The translations under genes were made by a program, and so were the position numbers. Below the pieces are notes generated by a model that saw only the letters and a program-made list of their open reading frames with translations, was not told the DNA's origin and ran no database searches. 64,000 bases of DNA from Hymenobacter aerilatus (GTDB taxonomy: Bacteria > Bacteroidota > Bacteroidia > Cytophagales > Hymenobacteraceae). Shown here one piece after another: positions 17,282 through 39,852 of the stretch (position 1 is its first letter; each line of letters opens with the position of its first letter). The DNA lies in assembly GCF_022921095.1 (NCBI RefSeq), contig NZ_CP095053.1, positions 2,026,501 through 2,090,500 on the forward strand, read 5' to 3'.

Positions 17282-17341
17282 CGAAACTACCCGCACAGCC
17301 TGTTGGTCTTGCCCTAGAAAGACCGCAAGTTGTTGGCTAGT
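17282..17341 (-). promoter_or_regulatory. Late promoter P-late for the fibre/lysis unit
   Basis: Minus strand: activator-site candidate ACTAGCCAACAACTTGCG (17341-17324), 34-base spacer, -7 element TAGTTTCG (17289-17282), 4 bases, then ATG at 17277. The spacer has no -33 TTG at the normal distance. Confidence 0.8.
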
Positions 17342-20300
17342 CCACTGGTATCCGGTATCGCCCGTCGGCCGTTACCCGCCGATCGCCTGTGCTGCTTAGT
17401 CGAGTGAAGAGGGTGGTAGGCTGCCCGAACCGACCACTACCTAGTTTTCGCAGCGCAATAGAAGCCTCGGCCTCGTGCTCATCCAGCGCATACCCTACCA
17501 CGACATACTTGCCGTCGGCGTCAAACACCGCATCCACTACCAGCCCAATACCCCACTGCCAGAGTGTACGACCTCGCAGCGTTCCTGTTAACACTTCCCC
17601 CGGAAACGTTCGTAGTTCCAACCGGTCTAAGGCAGCGGTTTCCAACAGGCCCGCCGCCCGACGAGTACCGGGTCTACTCCAACTCGTCGTGGCCCGCCCA
17701 TCGGCTAAGGTCAACGCATGGCGCCACGCCTGCACGTCCATGCCGCGAACCGGCGCGAAATTACCATTGTCAAACTGGAACCGAGGCAGATCATCATGCA
17801 CGAGTTCTACGGTGGGCAGTAGTAAAAACCCGTTCTCGTTTACCGCAAACTGGGTTTCCGTGTCCTCAAAGAAGACTTCGTTGGGCCGGATTTGCAGCCC
17901 AATTTCGTAAATCGTGATAATCGGATATTGCCCATTACCCGTAACCGGGACGGGTTCTAGCGTGCCATTATCGAGTAGTTGGGGAGGGAGTAAACGAACG
18001 CGAATGGTATCGGCTACTAAGCCAAAGGGAATAAACTGCTCTACTGTTACCTCTTTGTCTTCGCTGGAAAAAGAGAACGTCAGGTAAGGTAATACTGGGG
18101 CGCCTCCATCCAAGACTTCAAACCGCAACCGCACGAAGTTAGGTTTGGGTTTCGGCTGCCCATCCACTTCCACGGGGGCTTCTACTTTTGCCCGTAACCG
18201 GAGCACCGTACGCGCCTCGTTTGGGTCCGGCTGGTGGGGCATGGGGGGCGAGAGCAACCCCGCCGAAGCAGGTGCCCGGTAGGCGTCAGCATACAAGGCA
18301 AGCGCGTACTGCCCGGCCTTACCTGACGACACGCGCCGCACTCCGGCAAAGAAGAAATTTCCTGTGCTTACCGCGTCTTCGACTGTCCAGTTAATTGGTT
18401 GGGTATTGGTCGGGTTCCACAGTTGAAACGTGCCATTTTCTAACTGATTTTCGACAAATTGCCTTTGCACGGTGGCTTGCACCACTTTGGCAGAGCCGAC
18501 GATACTCACGGATTGGTTCTCATCCAGCCAGTACGCGGAAAACTCGTCTTCCTCTTGGGGAGGCACGACGTGGCGGGGCAACGGCCTATCTGGAAGCGGG
18601 GCGGGAAGGCCATTCGGGTGAAAGGCGCGAAAATCATATTCTTGTTCGACTTCGTTCAGGCTCACAATCCACCACGCGCCCATTCTTTGCACCAGTAGAC
18701 AATTACTCCGGCGTAGAATGCTATTGAGCACCGTCCGGCAATCAACCGTCTTCCCCTGCTCGTAGTACGCTGTGCGCCAGCCCCACGTCTCGGCTAGGGG
18801 GTCGGCGTCTTCGCCCATCAGCACGTCGCGTAGGTTGTCGGCGTTGTATAACGGAAGGTTTACGTCACACCGAGACAAACAGTGCAGTACCGTCGCCAGC
18901 AGCGGCCGGCGTCCGAGCATATCCTCCCCGATGTGATTTAAAAACTCTGTATCGGCTAACGCTCCTAGCCCATCGTTGGCGTCAAAGCTAACTTCCTGGC
19001 CTATGCCTAATAGTGGTTCTTGGTAGGTGCTTGGGTCCACGAAGCCTCTGAATACCAGAATATCCGCCCGGTAGACACTAACACGGTGGAAGCGGTCGTG
19101 CTTGGTGACAATATCCACGAACTGCCGCACTTGGCTGGTTCTGAGCCGCAGGGTCACACCCGAGCCAATGGCTTCGGGTAAGATGCCATCGGGCGAACTG
19201 CCGGTTTCAGCGTAGGAGCGTTGCGCTGGGCTCGCTGCCCCGCATACGCTCGTTACCCCACCCGCCCAATCCTGTTGTTCTATTTCAACTCGTAAGGAAG
19301 TACTGAACAGGTCATCCGCTTCCAGTCGCCACCGCACCCGGTAGCGGTCCTCAATGGTAAACTTGGCTTCAATACTTCTACCGGCCGCATCTTGAACGCG
19401 CACAGTATGCTGCCCGGCCGGGAGGTTATCAAACTGCCCGGTGGTATTTGTTTCACCTGTACTTTCTTCTGTAAACGACAACGGCAACGCGGGCGAATCG
19501 GCTTCTACCCACACGTCGCCTAGTCGCTCCAGTACTGAATCAATATCGGTTTTGATGAGGTTGAGTAGACGCAGTTCCCCGGCTGTGCTAGGCGTTGTGG
19601 CAATCGTATCTTCAACCCGTAGTCTGTAATTCCCGTCGTGATAGAGCCGCCGATACGTGATACCATCAGGCAGGTAATACGCGTCTACGATTTCTGTGGT
19701 AGGACGCGAGTAGGCGGCTGGGTAGGCCGGGTCGGTTTGGTAGGCAACGTCGTAGGCGTCACGGGTAGCGAAATCATAGGCGGTGCCCCTGGCAACGTAA
19801 ATCGTGCGGCCGTTTTCGCCGCGGTCATCCGTTATAAACTCTTCAAAAAGGAAGTATTTGAGCCACTTGGCAGGCTCTCGCGTCGGGTCGGCCGGCTGGT
19901 TGTCGGTTTCACCCGGTCCAAAAATCCGAACTTCCTCCGAAATCACTTGGCAGGTGGCCGCGTCCTGCACCGCGCACCGATATCTTCCAGCCGGGGCTTT
20001 CTTGAACACGAACTGATACACGCCTTCTGTTGGAATGGAATACGTGTAATTCGGCGTGTCTCCTACTTGCCCGACGACATAGCTTACCCCGGCAACCGTT
20101 ATAGAAAAACTAGCCGGTCCGTTGCTGGTAGAGGCGGTAAAGAATAAACTACCGAAAGCAGGATCATCCGTCGTATTCGTCCCGAACGTTTCTAGACGCA
20201 GGTCACAGACGCCCGCTATGGGACAACTACCGTGGTTAGGGTTGTCAATGCGTTCTGCCTGCCCGCCTTGGCTGTAGCGCAGCACGTAGGTCGAGCCTTC

Positions 20301-20486
20301 GCAGTATTCGTCTAAGACCGTGTTGTCTTCAATCTGGTGCGTTTCCAGTTGGAAGCTATCCACTACCTCTGTTTCCGAGGCATGAATAACAGGATTGTAG
20401 TAGATGCGGGTAACGCGGTACTGCCCCGGCGCGGTCTCGACGCTGGTAGAGGTGAGCAACCGCCGCTCGTAGACAGGAAAGGCCAT
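17337..20486 (-). CDS. Large tail tip/baseplate protein, 1049 aa
   Basis: Starts MAFPVYERRLLTSTSVETAP at ATG 20486, 4 bases after a late -7 element. The sequence is beta-rich throughout with several Ig-like stretches (FDNLPAGQHTVRVQDAAGR) and an N-terminal Cys-containing region. Order after the tape measure matches the tail-tip hub or host-specificity protein of siphoviruses, but no named domain is clear. It is the only gene of its transcription unit; its stop lies in the next late activator site region. Confidence 0.75.
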   Translation of the reverse strand: MAFPVYERRLLTSTSVETAPGQYRVTRIYYNPVIHASETEVVDSFQLETHQIEDNTVLDEYCEGSTYVLRYSQGGQAERIDNPNHGSCPIAGVCDLRLETFGTNTTDDPAFGSLFFTASTSNGPASFSITVAGVSYVVGQVGDTPNYTYSIPTEGVYQFVFKKAPAGRYRCAVQDAATCQVISEEVRIFGPGETDNQPADPTREPAKWLKYFLFEEFITDDRGENGRTIYVARGTAYDFATRDAYDVAYQTDPAYPAAYSRPTTEIVDAYYLPDGITYRRLYHDGNYRLRVEDTIATTPSTAGELRLLNLIKTDIDSVLERLGDVWVEADSPALPLSFTEESTGETNTTGQFDNLPAGQHTVRVQDAAGRSIEAKFTIEDRYRVRWRLEADDLFSTSLRVEIEQQDWAGGVTSVCGAASPAQRSYAETGSSPDGILPEAIGSGVTLRLRTSQVRQFVDIVTKHDRFHRVSVYRADILVFRGFVDPSTYQEPLLGIGQEVSFDANDGLGALADTEFLNHIGEDMLGRRPLLATVLHCLSRCDVNLPLYNADNLRDVLMGEDADPLAETWGWRTAYYEQGKTVDCRTVLNSILRRSNCLLVQRMGAWWIVSLNEVEQEYDFRAFHPNGLPAPLPDRPLPRHVVPPQEEDEFSAYWLDENQSVSIVGSAKVVQATVQRQFVENQLENGTFQLWNPTNTQPINWTVEDAVSTGNFFFAGVRRVSSGKAGQYALALYADAYRAPASAGLLSPPMPHQPDPNEARTVLRLRAKVEAPVEVDGQPKPKPNFVRLRFEVLDGGAPVLPYLTFSFSSEDKEVTVEQFIPFGLVADTIRVRLLPPQLLDNGTLEPVPVTGNGQYPIITIYEIGLQIRPNEVFFEDTETQFAVNENGFLLLPTVELVHDDLPRFQFDNGNFAPVRGMDVQAWRHALTLADGRATTSWSRPGTRRAAGLLETAALDRLELRTFPGEVLTGTLRGRTLWQWGIGLVVDAVFDADGKYVVVGYALDEHEAEASIALRKLGSGRFGQPTTLFTRLSSTGDRRVTADGRYRIPVD

Positions 20487-20490
20487 GCTG

Positions 20491-20549
20491 CGAAGCTAAC
20501 AGAGGAGGCTAGGGGTTCGGGGAAGGCCCGGCGCAACTTGTTGGCTAGT
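20491..20549 (-). promoter_or_regulatory. Late promoter for the baseplate gene
   Basis: ACTAGCCAACAAGTTGCG (20549-20532), 33-base spacer, TAGCTTCG (20498-20491), 4 bases, ATG 20486. It lies in the intergenic region shared with the divergent secreted-protein gene. Confidence 0.8.
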
Positions 20550-20568
20550 GGTTGTGTATATTGGCGGT

Positions 20569-21006
20569 ATGAAAAATATTCTACTTTTAGCGTGTATCTT
20601 ATCAAATACATATGCTATTGGGCAAACTACGTCTGCGACGCCATTCAAAGGGGCTACCGTTATCAGTGTACCATTCACTGGGTCTGCTGGGCAATCTTTA
20701 CAGCGCATCGCAAAAGTATTTGTGCAGCAAGGATTTGGTATTGAGCGAATGGATACGACGCTAGGCTATTTTGACACCGCCCCACGAGCCTACGGGCAGT
20801 TGTCGCCAGCCGTGTTTCTATACCATGTCGTTGCTAAAAACACGGTAGAAATTACAGGGCAATATCAAGTAAAGGTTGGACTGCAAACCATCAGTTCACC
20901 GATGCAGTGGACAAAAAGTAATCTGACACAAGACAAGCAATGTTTTTTGCGGGCACAGGAAGTAGCCGAATCCTACTCCCCTACCCTGCAATACAGCACG
21001 CGTTAG
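20569..21006 (+). CDS. Small secreted protein, probable moron
   Basis: 145 aa from MKNILLLACILSNTYAIGQ, a Sec signal peptide (ATG 20569, with TATATTGG 4 bases upstream). The mature part is about 125 aa of mixed alpha/beta (FVQQGFGIERMDTTLGYFDT) with no recognised domain. It is opposite to the tail genes, divergent from the baseplate gene and convergent with the tape measure, which it overlaps by 4 bases. Signal peptide, strand and own promoter suggest a lysogenic-conversion gene expressed from the prophage. Its role is unknown. Confidence 0.75.
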   Translation: MKNILLLACILSNTYAIGQTTSATPFKGATVISVPFTGSAGQSLQRIAKVFVQQGFGIERMDTTLGYFDTAPRAYGQLSPAVFLYHVVAKNTVEITGQYQVKVGLQTISSPMQWTKSNLTQDKQCFLRAQEVAESYSPTLQYSTR

Positions 21007-24000
21007 GCTTTGCGTAGAGTCCTATATTGATCGACTCGCAGCAGCTTTGTAAGCACGGACGACGCATCATCACTTGATTTTAAATCAACTTCTACTTTCA
21101 ATGCTTGTGATTTAGGGAAATCCGCTGGTTTGGGGGCCGCTACTGCGGCGGGCCCTGTCCCCGCCGAACCAGCTCCGGTAATAGAACCGAGTTGCCCAGC
21201 AGCTTGCTTGCCTACTGCCGAAACGACCCCCCCAAGGGCTACAAGCCCTATGCCAGCGGCAATAGCTGCGATACCGCCCGCGGCGCCAGATTTAAACAGG
21301 TTATCTAGGGCAAGCTTGGCAATACCAATCGCAATGAGTTGCTGCCCGAAGGTTTTCATAAAATCTCCAATAGCGGAGATGATAGACCCAAAGACAAACT
21401 GCAAGCCATCACCAATTGTAGCACTACCCGTAACGATAGCGCCAAACGCTTCCCCAATCGAGTCTGCAATACCTGAGAGCGCAGAAGCTACCCCGAACTT
21501 AAAGGTTTCGACTAGGGCTTGTTGTTCAGTCAGACGCTTAAACTTATCCGTTAAGGACTCTACGCCCTCTCCTACTTCGCTTATATTGCGCAGATACACC
21601 CCCGTCCCATCAGCAGACTCCACAAAGCCGACGGTGGTGGGGTCAATACCTTGCGCCCTTAGATTGGCAAGCGACGCGCTTACAGCGGCGATCTTAGCCC
21701 CTGTGTAATCGAAAGTTGCTCCGAAATCGACACTTCCTTGCGCCGCTTCAGCAAGGGCTTTGTTAAGTGTTATCGTTTCGTTGGTGAGCGCTAAGCCTTC
21801 CCCGCCGCCTCGCATACTTGCGAAATTCAACCGGACAGGCAAGTCAAGCGGCTGGCTTTTATAGTCCCCAAGGATATTCTGAATATCTCTATCCAATGTA
21901 TCCTTGACCGTACGGGGCATCCGTAGCCCTTCAAAAATCTTCCCGCCATCTAGCTGATCGAATCCGGTATCAAGCGATTGACGGAGCGTAACAAGTTGCT
22001 GCGTGAACGAGGCAAAGGCCCTGTTCGCGCTGGTGACGCCCACCTTCGCGAGTCGAGACAGCCCGGTTTCCAGGATGGCAATGCGCTTGGTGGTTTCCTC
22101 AACGCCTTCTGATACGATTCCAAGCTTCACTTGTCCGTCCAACCCACGCAGGTTGTCGCGTAGTTGCTTAAAGGCTCGTTCTACTTCGCTTAGGGCTTTC
22201 TTAGCGGTGTTTGGAAGTTGCTTGAATTCTGCTATTTGAGCGCGTAGGCGTTTAATCAACGCATCATCAGCCGTCAGGTCTTTCCCTGCTAGCTTGTCGT
22301 TGTAGCGTTGTTCTAAGGCGGCTTTAAGTTGTTCTTCTAGTTCTTTGAGTGTAACCAGCGCTTTCCCGGTTTTATCAGCAGCCCCTTTTACGGCATTCAA
22401 CCCAGTAGTGGCAGCGGCTCCTAATCCCAAAAAGCCTTTGGTTAAGCCTCCTATTGCTGGATTGATGACGCTGCTAATTTGCACCCCTGCACTACTGAAG
22501 TCTCCTAGCGTACGGCGCAAGTCGGTGACGACGTTCTTTTGCTCGTCAAACGCCTTGGTAGCGTTTACCAACTCCTTTTGAAACGTTACGATGTCATCCG
22601 TTTGGTCGGAGTAGAAAGCCCGCCCACCGCTGGTGACGAATACTTTGCCGGTTCTATTATAAATCTCTTGGCGTTCCCGTAGTGTGCGCAGTACTTTTTC
22701 GCGTTTTTGCAGTTCCTCTGTTTCGCTTTCAATAGATTGCCGGGCAGAACTTACCGTTAACTGCTGTTGCGCGGCAATGAACTCACGGGTGCGCTTCGTA
22801 TTAAGCGAAAGCGTCTTCCCGTACGCATCTATCTCTCCGCGGGCACTAGGAATGGCCGTCGTGACTTTTTGGATGATGGTCTCTAGCTCTGCTTGCTCCC
22901 CGGCCGTGAGTGCAGTTTTGCTTTGCAGTTCCTCGTAGCGGGCAAGCAGTGGCTCAACCGAAGTCGTAAGTTCTTGAGTGGCTGTCTTCTGGTCCTGATA
23001 CGACCGTAGCGTGCGTTCGCTGCTGTTGGACAGATAAACCAAGCCCGCCGCGAGTGCGGCTACGGCAGCTACTGCTAAGCCAATAGGGCCAGTAGCAACG
23101 GTCACAGCGGCACCTAATGCTTCTAATCCAACAATGAGTGCGCCGCCTGGGGCTAATAAAGAAATAATACTACCCAATCCAAATGCCAGTGGCCCAATAG
23201 CTGCCACCAACCCACCGACCACCAACACCGTTTTCGCGGCGGCTGGCGACATGTTATTCAGTGCTCCCGTAATGGCTCCTACCGTCGCAGAGAAGCCTTT
23301 TAAGAGGGGAAGCAGTTGATTGCCAACTGTTATTCCTAATTCGGTCAGACGGTTTTTCGCTATCTGTATCTGGCTCGCAGTTGTTTCGTAGCGTTGCCCG
23401 GCTTCTTTGGCAAGGGCGGTATTGTCGGAGAATGCTTTACCCGATAACTCAATTGCCCGACGGGCCACGTCGCCCGACCCTGCCAAACGCAACAGCGAGT
23501 CGGATACGCGAATATCATTTAGCTCTAAATCTGCTAGGGTTTTAAGCGTAGAGCCGCCCTGGTCTTTAATTCGCCCTAACCCCTCGGTGAAGTCTACGAT
23601 GGCGCCGGCCGCGTTGGTGCGGAAGCTCTTGGCGAATGCATCGGCACTCACGCCCGCTACCTTGGCGAACTTATTCAGATCACTACCCCCGTTCTCAACC
23701 GCTAATTGAATGCGTTTGAAGACCGTGCTTAACGCAGTACCTCCGGCTTCGGCATTGATGCCTAAGCTACTCAGTGCCGTGCCAAACGCCAGAATATCGG
23801 CTTCTGTTAGATTAATCTGCTTACCTGCCCCGGCTAAGCGTCCAGCGATTTCAACAATCTCTGATTCAGTGGTTGCAAAGTTGTTCCCCAATGCGACTAC
23901 CGCGGAGCCCAGGTTACTAAACTGGGTTTGGGGGAGCTGGGTAATATTAGCCAGTCGGGCTAACGCCGTGGCGGCTTGATCGGAACTGAGGTTCGTGCTG

Positions 24001-24779
24001 TTGCCAAGATCAATCATGGTCTTGGTGAAATCCAGCACGTTCTCGCGTTTGATGCCAAGTTGCCCGGCGGCTTCTGCTACTTTGGCTATCTCAGTGGCTG
24101 CGGCTGGTATTTCCGTGGCTAGTTGTCGGATGCCGGCGCTCAGACGAGCATACTCGGATTCTGTTTGCGCGGCACTTAACCCAGTAGTATCAAGTGTTTT
24201 CTTTACCCCGGCAAAAGCCGATTCAAAATCTACTGCCGCCTTGCCCGCCAGCCCAAAGGCTAAGGTAATGGGCGCACTAATTCCAATCGAAGCCGCCTGC
24301 CCTACGTCTTTTAAGCCATCCCCTAACCGACCAACCCCATCTTTCAGCCCTTTGGCCGCTGCGTCACCTGCTTTAAAGGCCGCAATCAACTTGCCGTTGA
24401 TGGTATCCGCGGCATTGCCCGCACCGGCGGCTAATCCTTTGAATCCATTCCCGGCCGTTGCCGCAGCGCCCCCGACGTTCTTCGCGGCTTCCGCTGCTAG
24501 AGTGGACGAGCTTACCCAGCGCCCGTTGGCATCGCGCATCTTGCCCTGTGCATCAATGTAGCGCCCCATTGCCTTATCGGCTTCATTCAGCCCTCCAGCT
24601 ACACGGGAACCAATAGTAGCAGCGGCCGTGCCGACGCCCGATAAGGAGCCTGCCGCGTCTGTCGCTGCTTTGTTGGCCGTGCTGGCAAAGCTTTGTACGC
24701 GGGTAGCGGCTACATTCAACCCAGACTCTAGCCCGCTTAAATCGGCACCAATGGCAACATTCAGGGCTCCTAAATCCAT
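21003..24779 (-). CDS. Tape measure protein, 1258 aa
   Basis: The N-terminal 500 residues match the TP901 tape-measure core (FESAFAGVKKTLDTTGLS, AAEAAGQLGIKRENVL, ALSSLGINAEAGGTALS). Hydrophobic stretches lie near 540-590 and in the last 100 residues; long helices fill the rest. The protein sets tail length and may help DNA cross the envelope. By the usual 1.5 A per residue the tail would be about 190 nm. It directly follows the frameshifted chaperone gene. Confidence 0.95.
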   Translation of the reverse strand: MDLGALNVAIGADLSGLESGLNVAATRVQSFASTANKAATDAAGSLSGVGTAAATIGSRVAGGLNEADKAMGRYIDAQGKMRDANGRWVSSSTLAAEAAKNVGGAAATAGNGFKGLAAGAGNAADTINGKLIAAFKAGDAAAKGLKDGVGRLGDGLKDVGQAASIGISAPITLAFGLAGKAAVDFESAFAGVKKTLDTTGLSAAQTESEYARLSAGIRQLATEIPAAATEIAKVAEAAGQLGIKRENVLDFTKTMIDLGNSTNLSSDQAATALARLANITQLPQTQFSNLGSAVVALGNNFATTESEIVEIAGRLAGAGKQINLTEADILAFGTALSSLGINAEAGGTALSTVFKRIQLAVENGGSDLNKFAKVAGVSADAFAKSFRTNAAGAIVDFTEGLGRIKDQGGSTLKTLADLELNDIRVSDSLLRLAGSGDVARRAIELSGKAFSDNTALAKEAGQRYETTASQIQIAKNRLTELGITVGNQLLPLLKGFSATVGAITGALNNMSPAAAKTVLVVGGLVAAIGPLAFGLGSIISLLAPGGALIVGLEALGAAVTVATGPIGLAVAAVAALAAGLVYLSNSSERTLRSYQDQKTATQELTTSVEPLLARYEELQSKTALTAGEQAELETIIQKVTTAIPSARGEIDAYGKTLSLNTKRTREFIAAQQQLTVSSARQSIESETEELQKREKVLRTLRERQEIYNRTGKVFVTSGGRAFYSDQTDDIVTFQKELVNATKAFDEQKNVVTDLRRTLGDFSSAGVQISSVINPAIGGLTKGFLGLGAAATTGLNAVKGAADKTGKALVTLKELEEQLKAALEQRYNDKLAGKDLTADDALIKRLRAQIAEFKQLPNTAKKALSEVERAFKQLRDNLRGLDGQVKLGIVSEGVEETTKRIAILETGLSRLAKVGVTSANRAFASFTQQLVTLRQSLDTGFDQLDGGKIFEGLRMPRTVKDTLDRDIQNILGDYKSQPLDLPVRLNFASMRGGGEGLALTNETITLNKALAEAAQGSVDFGATFDYTGAKIAAVSASLANLRAQGIDPTTVGFVESADGTGVYLRNISEVGEGVESLTDKFKRLTEQQALVETFKFGVASALSGIADSIGEAFGAIVTGSATIGDGLQFVFGSIISAIGDFMKTFGQQLIAIGIAKLALDNLFKSGAAGGIAAIAAGIGLVALGGVVSAVGKQAAGQLGSITGAGSAGTGPAAVAAPKPADFPKSQALKVEVDLKSSDDASSVLTKLLRVDQYRTLRKA

Positions 24780-25501: not shown

Positions 25502-25502
25502 A

Positions 25503-25922: not shown

Positions 25923-25951
25923 TCGCTAGGGGTATAAGGAGTGAGAAATGT

Positions 25952-27693: not shown

Positions 27694-27696
27694 CGG

Positions 27697-29188: not shown

Positions 29189-29199
29189 TAGAGGAATGA

Positions 29200-29934
29200 T
29201 TAAATGAGTTGTAGAAAGGAGGTTAGTGCCTTCTCGCCGCTCGGCTCCTCAGACTCGGAAGTGGCTATTGCCGGCTTCACGGGTTCGCTGGGGAGTGAAA
29301 TCAGTCCTTTGTAGGCGGTTTGTATAGCCTCTAGCTCATCAGCTAGTTGGTATCCTAAGTCATCCGAAATAGTGCCGTGGCGCAGAGCTTTAACCAGCTT
29401 ACCCTCCCGGTCTTGAATGCGCGCAAGGGTTAGATCAAGCCCTGCTTTGGTATCGCACTTAATGCCAATCAAGGGGGTAAAGCGGTTGGCGCCCCATGTA
29501 ACAGCCGAAAATTCACTCACTGCCAACTCGGTTAGGTATTGAATACCCGCCTCGTCTTTATGGCTTTTCATGATGCGGTAGCCAAACGAATGCTCAAAGA
29601 GGTCTAGCTCGTAAAGCGCTAGTGCATCGTCCCCATCCTTACTGCCGAGCGCGAGTTGCGAAGACACAACGGCCCCAACAGTATCCTGCCCTAATTCGAT
29701 AGGCTTACCAATGATGGTGCGTGTTTCGTGTTGACGCAGGTGCTTTATGCGGTTTGCGCCAGTAGGGCCGTTCTCAGCAAATGTTTTTGTAAAGGCGCCA
29801 GGCATCGTTACATCCCCATCGCTATCCACGTTATTAAACGCAGCGCCATAGAACTGCACAATGCCCTTTCGGCCATCAATGTCTTTCAGCAGTACCGGCC
29901 CGGCGTAGGCGTAAGAGTATCCCTGTGTGAGCAT
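29200..29934 (-). CDS. HK97-type prohead protease, 244 aa
   Basis: Begins MLTQGYSYAYAGPVLLKDID at ATG 29934, 4 bases after a perfect late -7 element. LRQHETRTIIGKP (catalytic His near 69) and ELAVSEFSAVTWGAN (Ser near 140-143) match peptidase family U35. It cleaves the capsid delta domain. It is the first gene of the capsid/tail transcription unit. Confidence 0.93.
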   Translation of the reverse strand: MLTQGYSYAYAGPVLLKDIDGRKGIVQFYGAAFNNVDSDGDVTMPGAFTKTFAENGPTGANRIKHLRQHETRTIIGKPIELGQDTVGAVVSSQLALGSKDGDDALALYELDLFEHSFGYRIMKSHKDEAGIQYLTELAVSEFSAVTWGANRFTPLIGIKCDTKAGLDLTLARIQDREGKLVKALRHGTISDDLGYQLADELEAIQTAYKGLISLPSEPVKPAIATSESEEPSGEKALTSFLQLI

Positions 29935-29938
29935 GAAG

Positions 29939-29998
29939 CAAACCTACCCTACCCCACCCCCTGCTATGTAACCACAGAAGCGCAAAGTGTTGGCTAGT
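29939..29998 (-). promoter_or_regulatory. Late promoter for the capsid/tail unit
   Basis: ACTAGCCAACACTTTGCG (29998-29981), 34-base spacer, perfect -7 TAGGTTTG (29946-29939), 4 bases, ATG 29934. It directly follows a terminator at 30012-30035, so the capsid unit is insulated from the packaging unit. Confidence 0.85.
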
Positions 29999-30011
29999 CA
30001 CACCTAGACAC

Positions 30012-30035
30012 AAAAAAGCCCGCACGAGGCGGGCT
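30012..30035 (-). terminator. Rho-independent terminator of the packaging unit
   Basis: Minus strand AGCCCGC-CTCGT-GCGGGCT followed by TTTTT. It ends the unit that begins at 39788, just before the next late promoter. The 30036-30186 stretch holds nothing else I can identify. Confidence 0.85.
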
Positions 30036-30186
30036 AATTAGCACTTAGTCCAGAAAGCAGGAAGCGGTAGTAGGTTCTACCGGAAAAGCGTGTAGGTCTG
30101 TGTTATCCCATCTTCCCAGCCTAGATCGTAGCCAGGACAACGGCATAAGGTGCGGGGTGGGCGGCTGCTGGTGAGGAGGAGTAGCT

Positions 30187-31100: not shown

Positions 31101-31116
31101 TGCTACAAGTTACGTA

Positions 31117-32059: not shown

Positions 32060-32065
32060 CTTGTC

Positions 32066-32404: not shown

Positions 32405-32415
32405 GGTGGTGGGGG

Positions 32416-32583
32416 TTAATTGAATTTACTAGCAAGCCATTCTTTTTCAGCATACATCCCAATAAGTAGGCCCGCGAAAGCCCCGACGATATACCCGTCC
32501 TTCCCGAAGGCATTGCCGATAATAGCGCCGCCGCTGGCTGAAACAAGTATGCTTGTAATGCGCTCCTGTGTAGTGCTTTTCAT
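32416..32583 (-). CDS. Glycine-rich small membrane protein, 55 aa
   Basis: MKSTTQERITSILVSASGGA followed by IIGNAFGKDGYIVGAFAGLL, a glycine-zipper-like hydrophobic hairpin, and EKEWLASKFN. Could be a membrane-active phage peptide. Found by reading the sequence; no homology known to me. Confidence 0.5.
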   Translation of the reverse strand: MKSTTQERITSILVSASGGAIIGNAFGKDGYIVGAFAGLLIGMYAEKEWLASKFN

Positions 32584-32588
32584 GGTCT

Positions 32589-33119
32589 TTAGACTTTTCT
32601 AATATAGTCTTGTCCCTCTACTAAGGGGGTGCCATTGAGGGGCAGGGCGAATTGTCCGACGTTGCGCAGGTAGTCAGCAGCTGCAAACGCGTTCTTAAGG
32701 TCTACTGGTAGTTGCTTGCCAGCGTGTTGCAGTCCTACAATCATATCCCACGTATCATCAATGCGAACGAAGTAGCCGTTGCTGAAATCAACCACCCAGC
32801 CGCTTCCGATATAGGTAGTCGTGAATGTGACGGTGCGCGTAGAGCAACTGCCAGTCGTGACAATCTTCGCCACCTCTACCGCTGGTACCGTCTTATCTGG
32901 TAAGGCAGTGCAGAGTTGGTCGAACGAGCGCAAGCGTGGGCGGACATCAGCTACTGAATATCCGTTAACCGATTGCGTTTCAACGCCATCTACGTCGGCT
33001 ATGTATCGTTTACTAAGCTTGAAGTAACGCAAACCAACCAATATGCCGGGGCCGTCGGGTGTTTCCACTTCTAAAGTACCCAGTGGATAGGCTTGCAACA
33101 GTTGTAGGGTAGTAGACAT
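32589..33119 (-). CDS. Hypothetical 176-aa protein
   Basis: MSTTLQLLQAYPLGTLEVET, with a beta-rich N-half and FDQLCTALPDKTVPAVEVAK. Similar N-termini (MSTT) occur on neighbouring small genes. Function unknown. Confidence 0.6.
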   Translation of the reverse strand: MSTTLQLLQAYPLGTLEVETPDGPGILVGLRYFKLSKRYIADVDGVETQSVNGYSVADVRPRLRSFDQLCTALPDKTVPAVEVAKIVTTGSCSTRTVTFTTTYIGSGWVVDFSNGYFVRIDDTWDMIVGLQHAGKQLPVDLKNAFAAADYLRNVGQFALPLNGTPLVEGQDYIRKV

Positions 33120-33121
33120 GG

Positions 33122-33340
33122 CTAGTTATGAAGTCTGTGTTTACACTGCCCGCAATGGGTTTTGCAGGGGCCGAACTCGTTTTGACACTCACTCAATGTC
33201 TTTGCTGTTGCCGGCCCCACCTGCCCACATGACATACAAGCCAGCGTAAACCGATTGCGTATTGCATGAGTACAGTTAGCCCGCTCGTGTGCGTCGCGTT
33301 CTATGACTGAGGCAAAGTTGAGGGATTGGGTAGTAGACAT
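33122..33340 (-). CDS. Cys-rich small protein, 72 aa
   Basis: Contains CTHAIRN, CMSCG and a cluster C-X5-C-X2-HCGQC. The Cys/His spacing suggests a zinc ribbon. It could bind nucleic acid or protein. Coded just before the M50 protease in reverse reading order. Confidence 0.55.
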   Translation of the reverse strand: MSTTQSLNFASVIERDAHERANCTHAIRNRFTLACMSCGQVGPATAKTLSECQNEFGPCKTHCGQCKHRLHN

Positions 33341-33354
33341 AAGGCAGAGGGGGC

Positions 33355-34077
33355 TTATAAAAAGTCGTTGTACACACTCAGAAAGAAAAGAACAGCCATA
33401 AGGGCCAGCCCCGTAAGAGCGAAGGCTCCTTGCGCCCAGCCCGGCACCCGGCGGCGACTTACCATCTCAACCAAGCCTACCACGATATGCCCACCGTCGA
33501 AAGGAAGCAATGGCAGTAGATTCGCCAGTCCTATAGCGGCAGAGATAGCGCCGCTATACAGCATACTTTCCCCTTCTTTCACTTGCTGCATGAAGGTGAA
33601 CGTGCTAGAAGCCTTCCCGGCGTCGGCTACTTCCAACGAGCTTATGCTTGCAGTGGGATGGGAGAACACGCCTGCTAGCTTGTGTCCGAGCATAGCCAGC
33701 AACTTTCCTGTTACACCGATAGTCGCCAGCACAGCTTGCCAATACGGAACATGCTGTTGCACCTGCACATAGTAGGCCACGCACAGGATGCCAAATATGA
33801 TGCTAGCCAGCGGGCCGGCGGCGGCGACTAGTACCCGTTGATAAGCAGGCGCGGCTTCGTAGTCCTCCTCTCGTGGCTTAACATACCCGCCCAATGGCAA
33901 GACACCTAGTCGGAAGGCCGTACCCCGCCACCGAAAGAGCGTAACCCCTGGCCCAAAGCCAATCGAGAACACGTCGGCCCGAATCCGAAAGGCAAGCGCT
34001 GCTAGGTAGTGCCCTATCTCATGCACAGTAACTAGTAAGCACAGCACAGCGCAGGATAAAAGAACGTTGGAGAGCAT
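33355..34077 (-). CDS. M50 site-2-type intramembrane protease, PDZ-less
   Basis: 240 aa. HEIGHY at 19-24 in the first TM, LPLGGYVKPREED at 60-72, and NLLPLLPFDGGH at 186-197 match the HExxH and LDG zinc sites of RseP/site-2 proteases. The PDZ domains of RseP (about 450 aa) are missing; about 85 residues separate the middle TM from the second metal motif. Members cut transmembrane substrates such as anti-sigma factors. It is embedded in the accessory block between portal and minor head, so it is phage-borne. The substrate is unknown. Confidence 0.85.
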   Translation of the reverse strand: MLSNVLLSCAVLCLLVTVHEIGHYLAALAFRIRADVFSIGFGPGVTLFRWRGTAFRLGVLPLGGYVKPREEDYEAAPAYQRVLVAAAGPLASIIFGILCVAYYVQVQQHVPYWQAVLATIGVTGKLLAMLGHKLAGVFSHPTASISSLEVADAGKASSTFTFMQQVKEGESMLYSGAISAAIGLANLLPLLPFDGGHIVVGLVEMVSRRRVPGWAQGAFALTGLALMAVLFFLSVYNDFL

Positions 34078-34140
34078 ATCGTTTCAGAGAGTGTTGGTAG
34101 TAGTAGGTTGTTCCTTTGTGCTTAGGAGAAAGAGAGGGGC

Positions 34141-34452
34141 CTAGGCTACAACACGATACCGAAACTCGTTTTCCTCTTCCATGAGGCGAGCGTCTTTGTC
34201 GGGGCTGTAGTCAGCATTTAATGAGATGCGCGTAAACCACCGGCCAAAGCGGTGCTGCTCTGAACGGGCAGTTGTGCAGTCGGTCAAGGTGTAGCCTAGC
34301 CGCTTCAACTCTTCCTGTTCTTGATAAGAGAGGTCGTAGGCGTCATAATAATCTTCGCCCCAGTTGTTCGCAGCCCGTAGTTCAATACCCAAGTCATAGG
34401 ACAGGATGCTGTTGCGCTCTTGCTGCAACTTGCGGAAGGATGGGAAGCCCAT
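34141..34452 (-). CDS. Hypothetical 103-aa protein
   Basis: MGFPSFRKLQQERNSILSYD, acidic/aromatic (NNWGEDYYDAYDLSYQEQEE), ending RYRVVA. No domain recognised. Confidence 0.6.
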   Translation of the reverse strand: MGFPSFRKLQQERNSILSYDLGIELRAANNWGEDYYDAYDLSYQEQEELKRLGYTLTDCTTARSEQHRFGRWFTRISLNADYSPDKDARLMEEENEFRYRVVA

Positions 34453-34463
34453 AGTGGTAGGCG

Positions 34464-34733
34464 CTATAGTGATTCAAACTCAGATTCCAATTCAGCGATT
34501 TTAGCAGTCCGACGAGCAATCAGAGATTCTAAAAAAGCCTTTATCTCTGCCTCGTCAGGGTTGCCTTCGGGATTCACATAGGTTATGGATAGCCATTGCT
34601 CAACAGGTAGCGACTCATCTACCTTGATGATGCGCAAGTAGTATTCGTTGCGCTGCAACTCTTCCACTTCCGTTTTCAGCCCAGCAATTTCAGCCGTGAT
34701 AGCTAGACCTCTTTCTATCTTTTCTTGTGTCAT
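34464..34733 (-). CDS. Hypothetical coiled-coil protein, 89 aa
   Basis: Starts MTQEKIERGLAITAEIAGLK (ATG 34733; a longer Cys-rich frame upstream is unlikely). Helical ends (KTEVEELQRN, RRTAKIAELESEFESL) flank a short beta region. It is divergent from the plus-strand cassette at 34818. Confidence 0.6.
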   Translation of the reverse strand: MTQEKIERGLAITAEIAGLKTEVEELQRNEYYLRIIKVDESLPVEQWLSITYVNPEGNPDEAEIKAFLESLIARRTAKIAELESEFESL

Positions 34734-34792
34734 ACCCAAAGATAATACATACACACTACATATACAATAGATACACACTTGTGATTTATTTC

Positions 34793-34800
34793 TATCTTCG
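34793..34800 (+). promoter_or_regulatory. -7 element of the plus-strand cassette
   Basis: TATCTTCG fits TAnnTTTG with one change, 17 bases before ATG 34818. No good -33 box at 19 bases. A cassette promoter is likely because neighbouring genes point the other way. Confidence 0.45.
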
Positions 34801-34817
34801 CAGCAATACCTAGACAC

Positions 34818-34985
34818 ATGGCAAAAGACCCGCGCAAAGACCGCCTATACAACCTGACCTTCGATTCTGCGGAAGAGAAAGCCTTCTACATTGAGTACGC
34901 CCAACGGGTGCATGGTCTAAAGCTCGCACAGTGGCTTAAGAAGATGATGCGCGATGACCGTCGGCAGAATGATTCCAAGTCCTGA
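34818..34985 (+). CDS. Ribbon-helix-helix-like protein, 55 aa
   Basis: MAKDPRKDRLYNLTFDSAEE then KAFYIEYAQRVHGLKLAQWL and KKMMRDDRRQN. A short strand followed by two helices and basic ends fits the RHH DNA-binding fold. It heads the plus-strand cassette and may control it or the divergent gene. Confidence 0.6.
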   Translation: MAKDPRKDRLYNLTFDSAEEKAFYIEYAQRVHGLKLAQWLKKMMRDDRRQNDSKS

Positions 34986-35034
34986 CCCCCTCCCCTACTA
35001 TGTAGTAGTTCTTAAAACATTAACTATCAAAACA

Positions 35035-35358
35035 ATGGCACACTCTATCCTTATCCGAGGCACCAAAGGAGAGCTTGTAGGCTTCTCTGTTGATTGGGAA
35101 GACAAAGGCTATATCGTAACCAACACAGTACAGGAAGGCAACCGACCGCAGTTCTATCCAACGGACTTTGTGGCGCGGCTCGATTTCGCATGCGGCCAAG
35201 TAGCTGCCTTAACCTTTGTCCCTTATGCTGGAGTTGATTGGAAGGCACACGAACAGCACTCCATTAGCGGGGTTCGTGGCTGGGCACAAGGCTTAGAATG
35301 GGCATGGCGTCATAGCCGCAACAAAGACCCAATGATTGCACCCTGGCTGATTCGATAG
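35035..35358 (+). CDS. Hypothetical 107-aa protein
   Basis: Starts MAHSILIRGTKGELVGFSVD (ATG 35035). Beta-rich front, then HSISGVRGWAQGLEWAWRHS. No family recognised. Second gene of the plus-strand cassette. Confidence 0.6.
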   Translation: MAHSILIRGTKGELVGFSVDWEDKGYIVTNTVQEGNRPQFYPTDFVARLDFACGQVAALTFVPYAGVDWKAHEQHSISGVRGWAQGLEWAWRHSRNKDPMIAPWLIR

Positions 35359-35393
35359 CCCCTCCCCTCTCTTTTAATCTAACAGAAAGACCG

Positions 35394-35774
35394 ATGAATC
35401 AACCCCCTGCTTACACTATCTCTGCCGACGCTAATCAGTATTTACAAGAGTTGGCAGGGCAAAACGGGTTAACACCAGCTTCAGTACTAGAAATACTTGT
35501 TCGGCAGGCACACGCTGGGGAGTGGTCGGTTACGCAAGCATTTCTATTCCCAACGAAAGCCGATGACCCTATTGACTTAGACGAACTACTGGGTCTGATT
35601 ACTACAACCCCTAGTCGGAATGCTTTGCGTCGATTTATTAACCAAATGGACCTTGTTTCGTGGTTGGACCTAGGCAGGCAAGGGCGGCAGCAACTTATGC
35701 GTATACCTTACTTCTCAGTAAAGTACTTAGATAATATATCCGCTCTACTTAAAACGAAAGGCGTTACTCTTTAG
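35394..35774 (+). CDS. Hypothetical 126-aa protein
   Basis: MNQPPAYTISADANQYLQEL then helical NGLTPASVLEILVRQAHAGE. The N-terminal half has an RHH-like flavour; the rest is unassigned. Third gene of the plus-strand cassette. Confidence 0.6.
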   Translation: MNQPPAYTISADANQYLQELAGQNGLTPASVLEILVRQAHAGEWSVTQAFLFPTKADDPIDLDELLGLITTTPSRNALRRFINQMDLVSWLDLGRQGRQQLMRIPYFSVKYLDNISALLKTKGVTL

Positions 35775-35808
35775 CCCTACTACTCTCTCTTACTCTTAAA
35801 GTACTATT

Positions 35809-35985
35809 ATGGAACTCTTCGATTCTCGTATTACAGCACTACTTGGCCAGCCCTTTGAAGAAGAAGGTAAATGGTGGATGCGCGTAGAAGCAGACACCCC
35901 AGAGGGAATACGCAACTTTGAAGTATCAAGAGACACAAAAGAACAGATAGAATCTATAGTGGTCGGGGATAAATTAATTTCTTAA
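35809..35985 (+). CDS. Hypothetical 58-aa protein
   Basis: MELFDSRITALLGQPFEEEG, ends VVGDKLIS. Last gene of the cassette; its stop overlaps the end of the convergent cupin gene by 4 bases. Confidence 0.55.
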   Translation: MELFDSRITALLGQPFEEEGKWWMRVEADTPEGIRNFEVSRDTKEQIESIVVGDKLIS

Positions 35986-36398
35986 CCCAACTGCGGATAA
36001 TGCTTCCACTCTCTTACCACAGGACCGGCTAGTACTAAACTCCAACACGGCCCGTCGGGCAGCTCGGTAATGGTATGAATGTAATCCGGTGGTATCTCAT
36101 GGGTGGAACCGGCTTTCCAAGTGATGTTGACGACTACCCCGTCTTGGTAGACGCGCTCGGTGTAGGAGCCTTCCACAATTGTGCTGGTGAAGTGAACCGG
36201 ATGGTCATGCATCGGACCCGAATCCGGCTCTCGCAGGCAGTGCAGCATAAGCCAACGCCCGTCCGCGATTGGCCCCAACGTGTACTTCGTCAGTGGCCCG
36301 AACTGCTCTACTTTCCACGGGTTGACCGGCCAGTGAGGGCCGAGCAAGGGGCGTAGTACCGCTTCGTGTCGGGTGGTGAAGGCTTCTAGGTCAGTCAT
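35982..36398 (-). CDS. Cupin-fold protein, 138 aa
   Basis: LREPDSGPMHDHPVHFTSTI, GSYTERVY and PPDYIHTITELPDGPCWSLV give the HxH...E...H spacing of a metal-binding cupin, related in look to cysteine-dioxygenase-type barrels. The substrate is unknown. Minus strand, in the packaging unit just after the portal. Confidence 0.75.
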   Translation of the reverse strand: MTDLEAFTTRHEAVLRPLLGPHWPVNPWKVEQFGPLTKYTLGPIADGRWLMLHCLREPDSGPMHDHPVHFTSTIVEGSYTERVYQDGVVVNITWKAGSTHEIPPDYIHTITELPDGPCWSLVLAGPVVREWKHYPQLG

Positions 36399-36661
36399 TA
36401 CTTCAGTTCTAGTACTTGCCGACGCCCTCTGCCTGCTAGTGATTCCTGTAAGTCTTCCAGGCAGTGCACGGAATGCACGGCTACTTTCACGCCGGCTGGG
36501 GTCTTCTCGTCGGCGTGTTGCATCCCAGGCTTCGGCACGAGTTCCAGGTAGTTGCCGCTGGGCAGGGGCGCTGCGTACGTGCGGGTGGGGTAAGGCTGGC
36601 GTTCCTCGTTGGTGCGGAAGCGCAGGGCTAAGAGAACGGGTTCAACGGGTTGATATGCCAT
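36398..36661 (-). CDS. Hypothetical 87-aa protein
   Basis: Starts MAYQPVEPVLLALRFRTNEE at ATG 36661; upstream 15 codons are less likely. Contains LPSGNYLELVPKPGMQHADE. No family recognised. Its stop touches the cupin gene's start. Confidence 0.6.
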   Translation of the reverse strand: MAYQPVEPVLLALRFRTNEERQPYPTRTYAAPLPSGNYLELVPKPGMQHADEKTPAGVKVAVHSVHCLEDLQESLAGRGRRQVLELK

Positions 36662-36711
36662 ACTGCAATTATTTTGGGTATTAATGCTTGTTTTCTCTTG
36701 CCTCAACTTGG

Positions 36712-38067
36712 TTACGGCCTATCCTTGTAGTCGTCTACACCCAAGCGGTTGAGCAGCTTCTCGGCGGCTTCGGCACTATCCGTATCAACAGCTTCATTCA
36801 AGCCGACGTACTGCGCGGGCACCATGTACTTCGGCCCGTCCCAGTCGGGCTTTACCCCATCCAACCGCTGTTTCTCCACAACAGGTATCCACCACGCTTT
36901 ATCGAGGTAGATAGCGCGTTGGGCCTTGTCTTCCTGCAACTCGGCAATGTCTGAGGTGGAGAAGTTGAAGTAGGCTTCGTCGTTGTACTCTTCGCCTAGC
37001 CAGCGGTTAAACCCATCACGGATGATGGTTTCCAGCGGAATCACACAGCGGTTGTACAGGGCCTTCCCTGCTTCGCCCATGTTGGAGAACGTGGTCCCTT
37101 TACTACCGTTGAGTAATTGGCCGGGGAAGCGGAACAAGTCAGCTACACTGTCCTTGTCGTGGGGGATGGCTTCTAACACCGCCAAATCCACCGGCCCTAA
37201 CCCTGTGCTCACGTACCGAATATCGCCCGTTACGAGGGGAATATCGCCGGACCGACGACCACCTGAGAAGAACGAGCGGAACCAGCCCTGCAATCTATTT
37301 TGCTGTGCGTCGGTCCAGTCGGCATTGTCGGGGCTAGCATCCGTAATCAAACCGGGAGGCCCTGCGTTCTGGTACTGCCGTACTCTGGATTCAATACCTG
37401 ACTTCGCGGCGGTTACGGGGTCAATGCCGGCGGTAATCGGGCTTAGACCATACCGGTAGTCCCCCGGATTCCAGTACTTGAGGTGTAGCACGTCTTCTAC
37501 TTCGTAGTTGATGTACCCGCCCCGGCCGTCGGGAATGCGATACCCCGTTACTTCCTGCATTCTGCCCCCGCCCATCACTTCCACAATCGGGGCTTCCAGC
37601 GCCCACCACTCGCGCATCTTGCCCCGATTGGGGCCGGACTCCAACCGAATACCGTACACGTAGGCATTCCCGGTGGTGAGTAGATAGCCTTCTAACTCCG
37701 TCTTGAGGTCTGCCCAGCTCTGACGAGGATTAGGTCGGTAGAGCGTTTCAGCTAGGGGGTGTTTGGGCAGTAGCTCTGCCGCAGCATCTTCTTCCGTGAC
37801 CTTGTACACGCCCCATGGAATGGCCTGCGCGACACTCAGGATGTAGTTAATCACCGAGTAGGCGACGTGGTGGTTGGTGTAGCCGTTCTTCACCAGGTCC
37901 TGTCCTTTCGCCCCTAACCACTTCGCCGGGGAATCCCCTACCAGTTGATAGCCGGACATGGGGAGCGTTCGCCCAATGCTATCGGTTAAGAGCTTTAGAT
38001 CAAGCGAGGTGGGTTGCACTTTGCGTAGGCCGAAGGATTGCAGGGCTACTTCTAAGGTTGTGTTCAT
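36712..38067 (-). CDS. Portal protein, HK97 family, 451 aa
   Basis: YTNHHVAYSVINYILSVAQA, HPLAETLYRPNPRQSWADLK, LLTTGNAYVYGIRLESGPN and VADLFRFPGQLLNGSKGTTF are typical of phage portal (HK97/SPP1 type) proteins. The length is typical. It forms the dodecameric DNA gate at the capsid vertex. It abuts the terminase gene. Confidence 0.95.
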   Translation of the reverse strand: MNTTLEVALQSFGLRKVQPTSLDLKLLTDSIGRTLPMSGYQLVGDSPAKWLGAKGQDLVKNGYTNHHVAYSVINYILSVAQAIPWGVYKVTEEDAAAELLPKHPLAETLYRPNPRQSWADLKTELEGYLLTTGNAYVYGIRLESGPNRGKMREWWALEAPIVEVMGGGRMQEVTGYRIPDGRGGYINYEVEDVLHLKYWNPGDYRYGLSPITAGIDPVTAAKSGIESRVRQYQNAGPPGLITDASPDNADWTDAQQNRLQGWFRSFFSGGRRSGDIPLVTGDIRYVSTGLGPVDLAVLEAIPHDKDSVADLFRFPGQLLNGSKGTTFSNMGEAGKALYNRCVIPLETIIRDGFNRWLGEEYNDEAYFNFSTSDIAELQEDKAQRAIYLDKAWWIPVVEKQRLDGVKPDWDGPKYMVPAQYVGLNEAVDTDSAEAAEKLLNRLGVDDYKDRP

Positions 38068-39342
38068 CTAGTAGACCTTTCGTTCTTTGGTGGGGGCTAA
38101 TGCCAATTCGGTAATACCCCACACCAGCGCGTCGATGTTGTTGGGGCTTTTCTGTCCTTCGCCGGCGCTCCATCCCGTTTGCTGGGATTCCAGCGCATCC
38201 AATCCAGGCAAATGGCGCACCCTGGCTTGCTCGTAGAGCGCCGCAACGGGTTCAGCACGGGTGTACTTGCCTTTGGTAGCGTGCACGGCCTTGTAGCTGA
38301 TGGTTTTGTTGACCTGCCGCACGTTTACCTCCACCAAATCTCCACCGTTGTTAACCTCGGCTACTACTCGGTCGGCTTGGTACTTGTCATAGAGGAAGCT
38401 CACTTTACTCGCCCAGTTTAAGGGAGTGTAGATACCAGTAGCGTCTTCTAAGACGTAGATCAGGTTATCCGATCCGAGCCCGACGACGACAATACCGGTT
38501 TCGTCGCTGTCCTCTTTACTCGATACGGCGGGGTCCACGGCAATCACGGTCCGGCGCAAGGTGACGTGCTTCGGGATGCCGGCAATCTGAATCGGCTCAA
38601 GCATTTCCCAGCGCCACAGAGCGCCTTTCACGTCGTCGTACTCGAAGTTGCCGTTGATTAGGCGTTGAATCGTGGCTTTACTAGCCGTTGCCAGAATGCC
38701 GGCGATGTAATCCGGTACTTCCGGGCTGGGGTTGTCCGCAGGCAGGGCCGGAATGAAGATGTGGCGAGGCTTGGGAATGCCGTCTCTATGGGGGCGGTAG
38801 TAGCGTTTGTAAACGTGGCCCTTGTCGGGGTTGAAGGTCTCCAGCATCTTGCGCCGTATACCGTACTCGTGGTTTCGCCGACGACCACAGCGGGTATAGA
38901 GAATCTCAATCGCAGAGTAAGCGGTTTCCGCGCTCTCATCTACGGCACATCCGGTTAGCTCAAAGCCCCCGAACCGGGCATAGAGCGGGTCGGAGGGCTT
39001 GTAGGCAGTGTCAATCAGAAAGATTTGCGAGCCGTTGGTGAACGTGATGATGTTGAGCTGCTGGTTGTAGGTGTAATCCCGTTCAGACTTGATATCTGAT
39101 TCAGCAAACACCTTAAACAAGGTCAGTAGCGTGGTTTTCTTGAGGTTCGTAAGCTCGCGACGGCCTAGCCCCCATCCGGTATCTGGATACGCCAGACACA
39201 TAATGGTAAGCCAGTAGCAGAGTAGGTAGGACTTACCGGAAAAGGCCGAACCACCGTAGCCGATGAACTCGGTTTCATCATCGGTCAAATACCCGTAGGC
39301 ATCGAACTGCTTTTTCGACGGCGTGAAACGGACATTTGGCAT
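38068..39342 (-). CDS. Terminase large subunit, 424 aa
   Basis: Walker A GGSAFSGKS (30-38) and FELTGCAVDESAE (Walker B-like) form the ATPase. The C-terminal nuclease shows VIAVDPAVSSKEDSDETG, VVAEVNNGGDLVE and SPNNIDALVWGITEL, the acidic RNase H-like site. It cuts and pumps DNA into proheads. It overlaps the small-terminase stop by one base. Confidence 0.95.
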   Translation of the reverse strand: MPNVRFTPSKKQFDAYGYLTDDETEFIGYGGSAFSGKSYLLCYWLTIMCLAYPDTGWGLGRRELTNLKKTTLLTLFKVFAESDIKSERDYTYNQQLNIITFTNGSQIFLIDTAYKPSDPLYARFGGFELTGCAVDESAETAYSAIEILYTRCGRRRNHEYGIRRKMLETFNPDKGHVYKRYYRPHRDGIPKPRHIFIPALPADNPSPEVPDYIAGILATASKATIQRLINGNFEYDDVKGALWRWEMLEPIQIAGIPKHVTLRRTVIAVDPAVSSKEDSDETGIVVVGLGSDNLIYVLEDATGIYTPLNWASKVSFLYDKYQADRVVAEVNNGGDLVEVNVRQVNKTISYKAVHATKGKYTRAEPVAALYEQARVRHLPGLDALESQQTGWSAGEGQKSPNNIDALVWGITELALAPTKERKVY

Positions 39343-39788
39343 TAGGCAGGGGCTATAATCTGAATCACAGGAACCCCTGGCAGCTTCTCGCCGCCCGTCG
39401 TCACATCTACCTTATCACCGTATTTCTTCGGGGCCAACTTGCCCAGTAGCCATTTGCGGCTGTCAATCTTCAACTTGTCTCGAGCAGTGGCCGTGAATCG
39501 TTCCCGCTCTACAGTTGAATCCTCCCCTACCTCTACCTCTACCACGTCCCGGCTGGCGTCGTCGGCAATAGCCAGTATCTCATCTGCAATAGCGTCAGCT
39601 CGTAACTCGCAGGCGCGCGCGTATTGTTCGCGAAAACTCTCGTGCTCCTCCTGCGCCAACCAACGCATAACGGTGGCAACATGAGGCATCCCAGGTAGTT
39701 TACAGGCAGAACGCAACGATAATCCCTCTGCAATTTGCTCGCAGATGTATTCGGCTATCTCCGGCGTGTAGTCACTAGGGCGTCCCAT
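39342..39788 (-). CDS. Terminase small subunit, 148 aa
   Basis: Starts MGRPSDYTPEIAEYICEQIA (ATG 39788, 5 bases after a late -7 element; the frame's upstream extension lies in the promoter). HTH (LSLRSACKLPGMPHVATVMR), then AARDKLKIDSRKWLLGKLAP-type helices as in phage terminase_5 small subunits. It recognises packaging DNA. First gene of the packaging unit. Confidence 0.9.
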   Translation of the reverse strand: MGRPSDYTPEIAEYICEQIAEGLSLRSACKLPGMPHVATVMRWLAQEEHESFREQYARACELRADAIADEILAIADDASRDVVEVEVGEDSTVERERFTATARDKLKIDSRKWLLGKLAPKKYGDKVDVTTGGEKLPGVPVIQIIAPA

Positions 39789-39793
39789 ATGAC

Positions 39794-39852
39794 CAAAACT
39801 ACCCCGCTCCCCTACGCGCCCGACGGCTACCCGGCGCAAACTGTTGGCTAGT
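39794..39852 (-). promoter_or_regulatory. Late promoter for the packaging unit
   Basis: ACTAGCCAACAGTTTGCG (39852-39835), 33-base spacer, TAGTTTTG (39801-39794), 5 bases, ATG 39788. The TAG stop of the HTH gene is part of the ACTAG box. Confidence 0.85.

Follow-up and report, generated by a model that had tools for sequence, protein, structure and literature searches.

What switches on the late genes of a temperate phage resident in a member of the Bacteroidota? The question is raised by a 64,000-nucleotide stretch of the Hymenobacter aerilatus genome (contig NZ_CP095053.1, positions 2,026,501 to 2,090,500; hereafter the window, with positions counted from its first base), in which an 18-base sequence, the late box, stands four times ahead of prophage late genes. 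An earlier note on this DNA had proposed that the box is the site of a phage-specific activator and stands in for the -33 contact of the host sigma factor. Our analysis favors this proposal, and we assign a probability of roughly 0.7 to the overall explanation that the four sites are late promoters of a temperate siphophage, activated by a phage protein that is likely a member of a protein family designated A2.

Four late boxes at a fixed distance from a -7 element

The late box, ACTAGCCAACAnnTTGCG, is present in four exact copies, all on the minus (late) strand, and a pattern scan of the whole 5,279,535-base genome returned these four as its only exact matches. In the scan of the window, all four sites agree with every one of the 16 defined positions, and matches with up to 3 mismatches number 7 against a shuffle mean of 0.66; the next-best matches genome-wide carry 2 mismatches. 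Likewise, the window holds four occurrences of ACTAGCCAACA alone, every one of them on the late strand. A fifth site, TAGCCAACAnnTTGCG at 63920-63937, is without a -7 box at the correct distance and is probably unrelated to the late promoters.

Each box precedes a separate unit on the minus strand. Late box 1, ACTAGCCAACAGTTTGCG (39835-39852), lies 33 nucleotides from the -7 box TAGTTTTG (39794-39801), which is followed after 5 nucleotides by the ATG of the small terminase gene (39342-39788); the start of this predicted leaderless gene is the ATG at 39786-39788 and not a TTG upstream. Late box 2, ACTAGCCAACACTTTGCG (29981-29998), stands before the protease/capsid unit, 34 nucleotides from the -7 box TAGGTTTG (29939-29946), with the ATG of the head maturation protease (29200-29934, capsid in the same unit) 4 nucleotides farther on. 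Immediately upstream of box 2 is an intrinsic-terminator-like hairpin (30017-30035, minus strand), the strongest among those listed for the region. Late box 3, ACTAGCCAACAAGTTGCG (20532-20549), is 33 nucleotides from the -7 box TAGCTTCG (20491-20498), and 4 nucleotides behind the latter begins the gene for a 1049-residue protein (17337-20486) that is downstream of the tape measure gene and baseplate-type by position. Finally, late box 4, ACTAGCCAACAACTTGCG (17324-17341), is 34 nucleotides from the -7 box TAGTTTCG (17282-17289), which lies 4 nucleotides before the ATG of a 386-residue protein (16117-17277), the first gene of the fibre unit, with the tail fibre after it. All four late units of the window are thus preceded by one and the same site at a fixed spacing to a -7 element; in relatives, three or four units are preceded in this way.

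These positions and their minus-strand orientation agree with the earlier note, as do the distances of 33 or 34 nucleotides to a TAGnTTyG-type -7 box and the missing -33 TTG, which we found 16-21 nucleotides ahead of none of the four -7 boxes (0/4). The order in which it named the four units was reversed relative to its coordinates.

Beyond the window phage, a 14-base core pattern searched over genome contigs and viral contigs gave scattered matches at chance level, and in 120 same-genus genomes the window motif was scattered, mainly as singletons with one mismatch; the exact box is therefore private to this phage. A sigma-70 style promoter scan also performed at chance level, a method ill-suited to the Bacteroidota.

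Predicted transcription starts on the start codon

A point missed by the earlier note is that all four -7 boxes end 4-5 nucleotides ahead of an ATG. In the regions examined, the pattern TAGNTTYG followed by 3-7 nucleotides and ATG has a frequency of about 1.8e-5 per position, so that four of four window sites at one spacing are not due to chance. The form TAGNTTYG-N4-ATG is found 20 times in the host genome versus 15 times for the reversed control, and three of the 20 are window phage sites (the fourth has 5 nucleotides); this form is therefore not a common host promoter.

In Flavobacterium johnsoniae, transcription starts 4 or 5 nucleotides behind a -7 element of the form T-12 A-11 .. T-8 T-7 T-6 G-5, and leaders exceed 10 nucleotides in 87% of predicted transcripts (PMC6847099). 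The window -7 boxes match this start distance, and the start codon should therefore be the 5' end of the mRNA; on this geometry, leaderless late mRNAs are quite likely. A G at -10 or -9 is practically absent from the F. johnsoniae element (PMC6847099), so the window -7 should be a poor element, and a poor -7 combined with a missing -33 should render the promoter in need of help. Compared with the Bacteroidota primary-sigma promoter (-33 TTTG / -7 TANNTTTG), the late promoters share the -7 pattern and the 4-5 nucleotide distance to the predicted start, but differ in having no -33 TTTG at about 19 nucleotides, a G at -10, a box near -55 and predicted leaderless transcripts.

Outside the late genes, further -7 boxes lie on the plus strand at 48252 (TACTTTTG) and 58121 (TAATTTTG), each 6 nucleotides before a start codon, and near-leaderless starts may extend beyond the late genes.

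Related phages keep the layout and exchange the box

To compare this arrangement with relatives, we used protease homologues in viral contigs (77, 65, 58 and 56% identity) together with same-genus prophages, and tabulated 33 promoters across the window phage and its relatives. Every phage close enough for comparison shows the same layout with a box of its own, mostly at orthologous late genes; in the five phages with ample data, the genes behind the boxes are largely orthologous. Phage G122, identical to a prophage in G023 (G023b), carries CGAGGTATTCGACAAGTT four times, at the terminase region, the protease, a 1032-residue baseplate homologue and the 432-residue next gene, which are all four window positions. 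G120 has four copies of CGGGGCCCGCCTACCAGT, G123 two of CACGGCCTGTAAACCACT and G043 three of CCCGATCCGTTCGACAACTT, while two prophages of G070 and those of G026 and G090 use the direct repeat TTGCCCCGCyTTGCCCCGC, with slight variants, two to three times each. When 22 regions were searched for similar sequence pairs at the offset of the box, 17 pairs with at most 1 mismatch emerged, versus 0 at a control offset.

The gap from box to -7 is 33-38 nucleotides, and the box centers fall at -51.5 to -59.5 when the first -7 base is taken as -12. Within a phage this spacing is rigid to 1 nucleotide although the spacer sequences differ. The -7 consensus of the 33 promoters is [T/G]A[G/A][C/T]TT[C/T]G, adjacent start codons stand 3-4 nucleotides behind it in 26/30, and a TTG at the normal -33 spacing (16-21 nucleotides) is missing in 31/33 and present in 2/33.

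Four near-identical repeats dispersed within one phage might also be packaging, partition or recombination sites with no promoter role. Such sites would not account for the fixed phase to the -7 box and start codon or for boxes of different sequence at the same genes in relatives, and the repeats are absent elsewhere in the genome; of all the explanations weighed here, we regard this as the least probable.

Located 45-65 nucleotides ahead of the start codon and without exception on the coding strand, the boxes might instead be an RNA element in the 5' leader of transcripts starting farther upstream, controlling translation or antitermination, with TAGnTTyG as part of a translation signal. Three phages (G070b, G026 and G090), however, each have one box that is combined with GAGCTTTG at a spacing of 30 nucleotides and with no ATG adjacent, a pairing that speaks against translation context. 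Moreover, TAGnTTyG fits the -7 of the host phylum with +1 falling on the ATG, a terminator separates box 2 from transcription upstream, and the spacing is held to 1 nucleotide per phage despite differing spacer sequence, leaving an RNA element very improbable.

Alternatively, a phage alternative sigma factor or phage RNA polymerase could read box and -7 as two promoter elements without a separate activator, a reading to which the departure of the -7 from the host consensus would lend itself. A gap of 33-38 nucleotides, however, is about twice that between the -35 and -10 elements of sigma promoters and more than a single-subunit polymerase could span. Among the approximately 40 early and late proteins scanned, none showed a sigma or polymerase domain, and the -7 is still consistent with the host sigma pattern; we give this alternative very little credence.

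The proposal of a phage-specific activator site in place of the -33 contact is thus supported by relatives whose orthologous late genes have the same layout with a different box, and backed further by the boxes paired with a -7 without an adjacent start codon and by the 31/33 promoters without a -33 TTG. Taken together, the sequence comparisons make it nearly certain that the four window sites have promoter activity and very likely that the late promoters depend on a phage activator.

A candidate activator encoded beside the first box

The gene at 39848-40444 (minus strand) encodes the candidate activator, a protein of 198 residues and isoelectric point (pI) 9.7 with an N-terminal helix-turn-helix (HTH) region (residues ~28-64) and a probably AbrB/MraZ/B3-like domain shared by the A2 family (~67-198). 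Among the non-structural gene families of the window phage, only A2 recurs in each of the nine other phages of the comparison. Structural-gene matches had led to seven of these phages; the remaining two, G043 and G090, were picked up through an A2 match but carry a structural match as well. Members are mostly small and basic, with a pI usually of 9-11.6. The TAG stop of the window A2 gene lies inside late box 1, and of five phages, four (the window phage, G120, G023b and G123) have their first late box beginning anywhere from 4 nucleotides before to 11 nucleotides after the end of the A2 gene. Among baseplate-positive regions, boxes were found in 7/13 with A2 versus 0/7 without, a weakly significant association (Fisher p 0.044). 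In seven regions where the baseplate or terminase homologues are distant (G088 C9, G011, G067, G109, G074, G038 and a second locus in the same host genome), there were no convincing box repeats and no A2.

By sequence, the shared A2 domain has no significant match in Pfam, NCBIfam or PHROGs; the window member gives only marginal HTH matches, at its N terminus, in these three databases, and the Pfam AbrB and MraZ models match none of eight A2 members up to an E of 1. For a short A2 member, an AlphaFold model made with seven sequences reached a predicted local distance difference test (pLDDT) score of 80 and a predicted template modelling (pTM) score of 0.70, and shows the strand-strand-helix-strand-strand order of AbrB-like domains. 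With the shared-domain model, VIA-align placed five MraZ structures at the top (best Z 5.4, root-mean-square deviation 4.7, 91 aligned residues), followed at ranks 6-8 by B3 DNA-binding entries (Z 3.4 to 2.8) and then by unrelated ones at 2.7 or below, so that the top eight matches are all DNA-binding. In the model of the window member, the C-terminal part matches B3 (Z 4.5) and the N-terminal part HTH proteins. These low-Z matches suggest that the shared domain probably has an AbrB/MraZ-like fold. Foldseek searches with the A2 models returned nothing at E 0.001. MID51 (E 0.002), the sole match in a profile search against solved-structure sequences, was judged spurious. Viral-contig searches with the window A2 protein found no close relative, and a fast search of 390 genomes of the order, scoring 10 candidates per genome, found no A2 match outside the genus.

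The closest A2 proteins also have the closest boxes. G023b and G043, which have the most similar A2 proteins among the five window-type phages, have boxes sharing TTCGACAAsTTG, and those of G120 and G123, next in A2 similarity, share ACCAsT. Several observations weigh against the overall explanation. Box similarity correlates with A2 similarity at r 0.64, which several structural proteins equal (r up to 0.66), and in Mantel-type tests A2 is not separable from structural genes; A2 is therefore not singled out, and the agreement between box and A2 may reflect co-inheritance. In G070-type phages the A2 gene lies about 3 kb from the nearest box. At the threshold used, a repeated box pair was missing from six A2-positive phages, most of which have single promoters bearing a box-like sequence before the baseplate gene, and the structural Z values of the A2 models are all below 8. 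Simple co-inheritance is itself countered by the proteases of the window phage and G120, which share 77% identity although the boxes of the two phages are unrelated.

The failure of the similarity statistics to single out A2 leaves room for promoters that work as described but are activated by another phage protein, such as a small early protein or the product of 49152-49943 with its Myb-like DNA-binding domain, in which case A2 would be a neighbor with another role, for example an auto-repressor acting at the box. Against this, only A2 among the non-structural window families is common to all nine other box phages; its gene adjoins the first box in four phages out of five, and its modelled domain resembles DNA-binding folds. 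We consider another activator unlikely and a member of family A2 the probable activator.

A2 genes also occur as tandem pairs or triplets of divergent sequence: L461-L462 (G086 C6), L463-L464 (G080 C33), L468-L469 (G070 C8) and L388 (G120). These tandems perhaps form mixed complexes on two-part boxes, or mark recent changes in specificity.

Proposed mechanism and relation to known late activators

In the mechanism that we propose, the 198-residue A2 protein, the most likely activator, would be made at the end of the early operon and would bind the 18-bp box centered near -55, a protein-DNA contact that we infer from sequence. Once bound, it would recruit or stabilize host RNA polymerase carrying the Bacteroidota primary sigma factor at a -7 that would be too weak alone, having a G at -10, often a C at -6 and no -33. 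Transcription would then start at or beside the A of the start codon, producing leaderless terminase, protease/capsid, baseplate and fibre mRNAs. Such action would resemble that of P2 Ogr or Gram-positive Ltr/RinA, but by an unrelated protein family.

In phage P2, late promoters lack a -35 contact and carry their activator site near -55. The four P2 late promoters share a single activator-site consensus, and the late operons depend on one phage activator, Ogr (PMC3931495). The window phage likewise has four late promoters sharing one site. It differs from the P2 Ogr/P4 delta system in that none of 16 promoters checked, from five phages, has TGT-N12-ACA within the 66 nucleotides ahead of the -7, and in that the candidate, with one cysteine and no CXXC, lacks the zinc motif CX2CX22CX4C; the Bacteroidota -7, the predicted leaderless starts and a box sequence that varies between phages are further differences.

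The Gram-positive Ltr/RinA regulators are small late regulators encoded just upstream of the terminase genes, in families unrelated in sequence that do the same job, and in Phi13 (Ltr/P23) four direct repeats lie upstream of the start of the late promoter of a single late operon (PMC13123087). The window candidate is comparably small, basic and positioned just upstream of the terminase, with its stop codon within the first late box. In contrast to Phi13, there are four promoters here; furthermore, no described regulator family matches the shared A2 domain, whose model is AbrB/MraZ-like, and the mRNAs are predicted to be leaderless. MraZ, to which the closest solved structures belong (Z only 5.4), binds direct repeats at its own promoter (PMC8475190), and the boxes of the G070 group are also direct repeats, but A2 is phage-borne and without a Pfam MraZ or AbrB sequence match.

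A search of an open-access library turned up no description of late promoters of this form in Bacteroidota phages. We lean slightly towards the view that A2 represents a new family of late activators with an AbrB/MraZ/B3-like domain, so far in the phages and prophages of one genus only, which would drive leaderless late mRNAs without a -33 and whose box specificity would have switched repeatedly, giving each lineage a private late regulon with a conserved layout. The arrangement would provide a readable late-promoter code for Bacteroidota phages (box, 33-38 nucleotides, -7, start codon) plus a candidate switch protein, which would allow late operons to be recognized by sequence in prophages that otherwise have no annotation. 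The exchanged boxes would be a natural set for examining how activator and site specificity change together while several promoters keep working, and leaderless late mRNAs would bear on translation initiation of highly expressed genes in a phylum without Shine-Dalgarno signals.

Other features of the window

The large terminase (38068-39342, minus strand) is mosaic, with residues 1-250 matched by most of its relatives in Bacteroidota phages and residues 236-424 by an Aeromonas phage and G123. Terminase relatives were found in Flavobacterium, Cellulophaga, Polaribacter and Bacteroides phages; like the -7 pattern and the host LpxC-FabA-like fusion beside the prophage, they point to a host in the Bacteroidota.

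Within the late region, 33355-34077 (minus strand) encodes 240 residues with a strong match to Peptidase family M50 (site-2 protease type), an unusual cargo. Two plus-strand open reading frames at 34954-35774 break the late strand between portal and terminator, and a separate AT-rich promoter-like site, TATCTTTG followed by 3 nucleotides and ATG, lies at 34744-34751 (minus strand). The site and the two reading frames suggest that a cargo module carrying a promoter of its own has been inserted here.

Directly behind a phage repressor-like gene (57509-58078) come lipid A genes of the host (58081-61601, plus strand), namely LpxD, LpxC with a fused FabA-like domain, and LpxA type, and the prophage therefore adjoins an essential operon.

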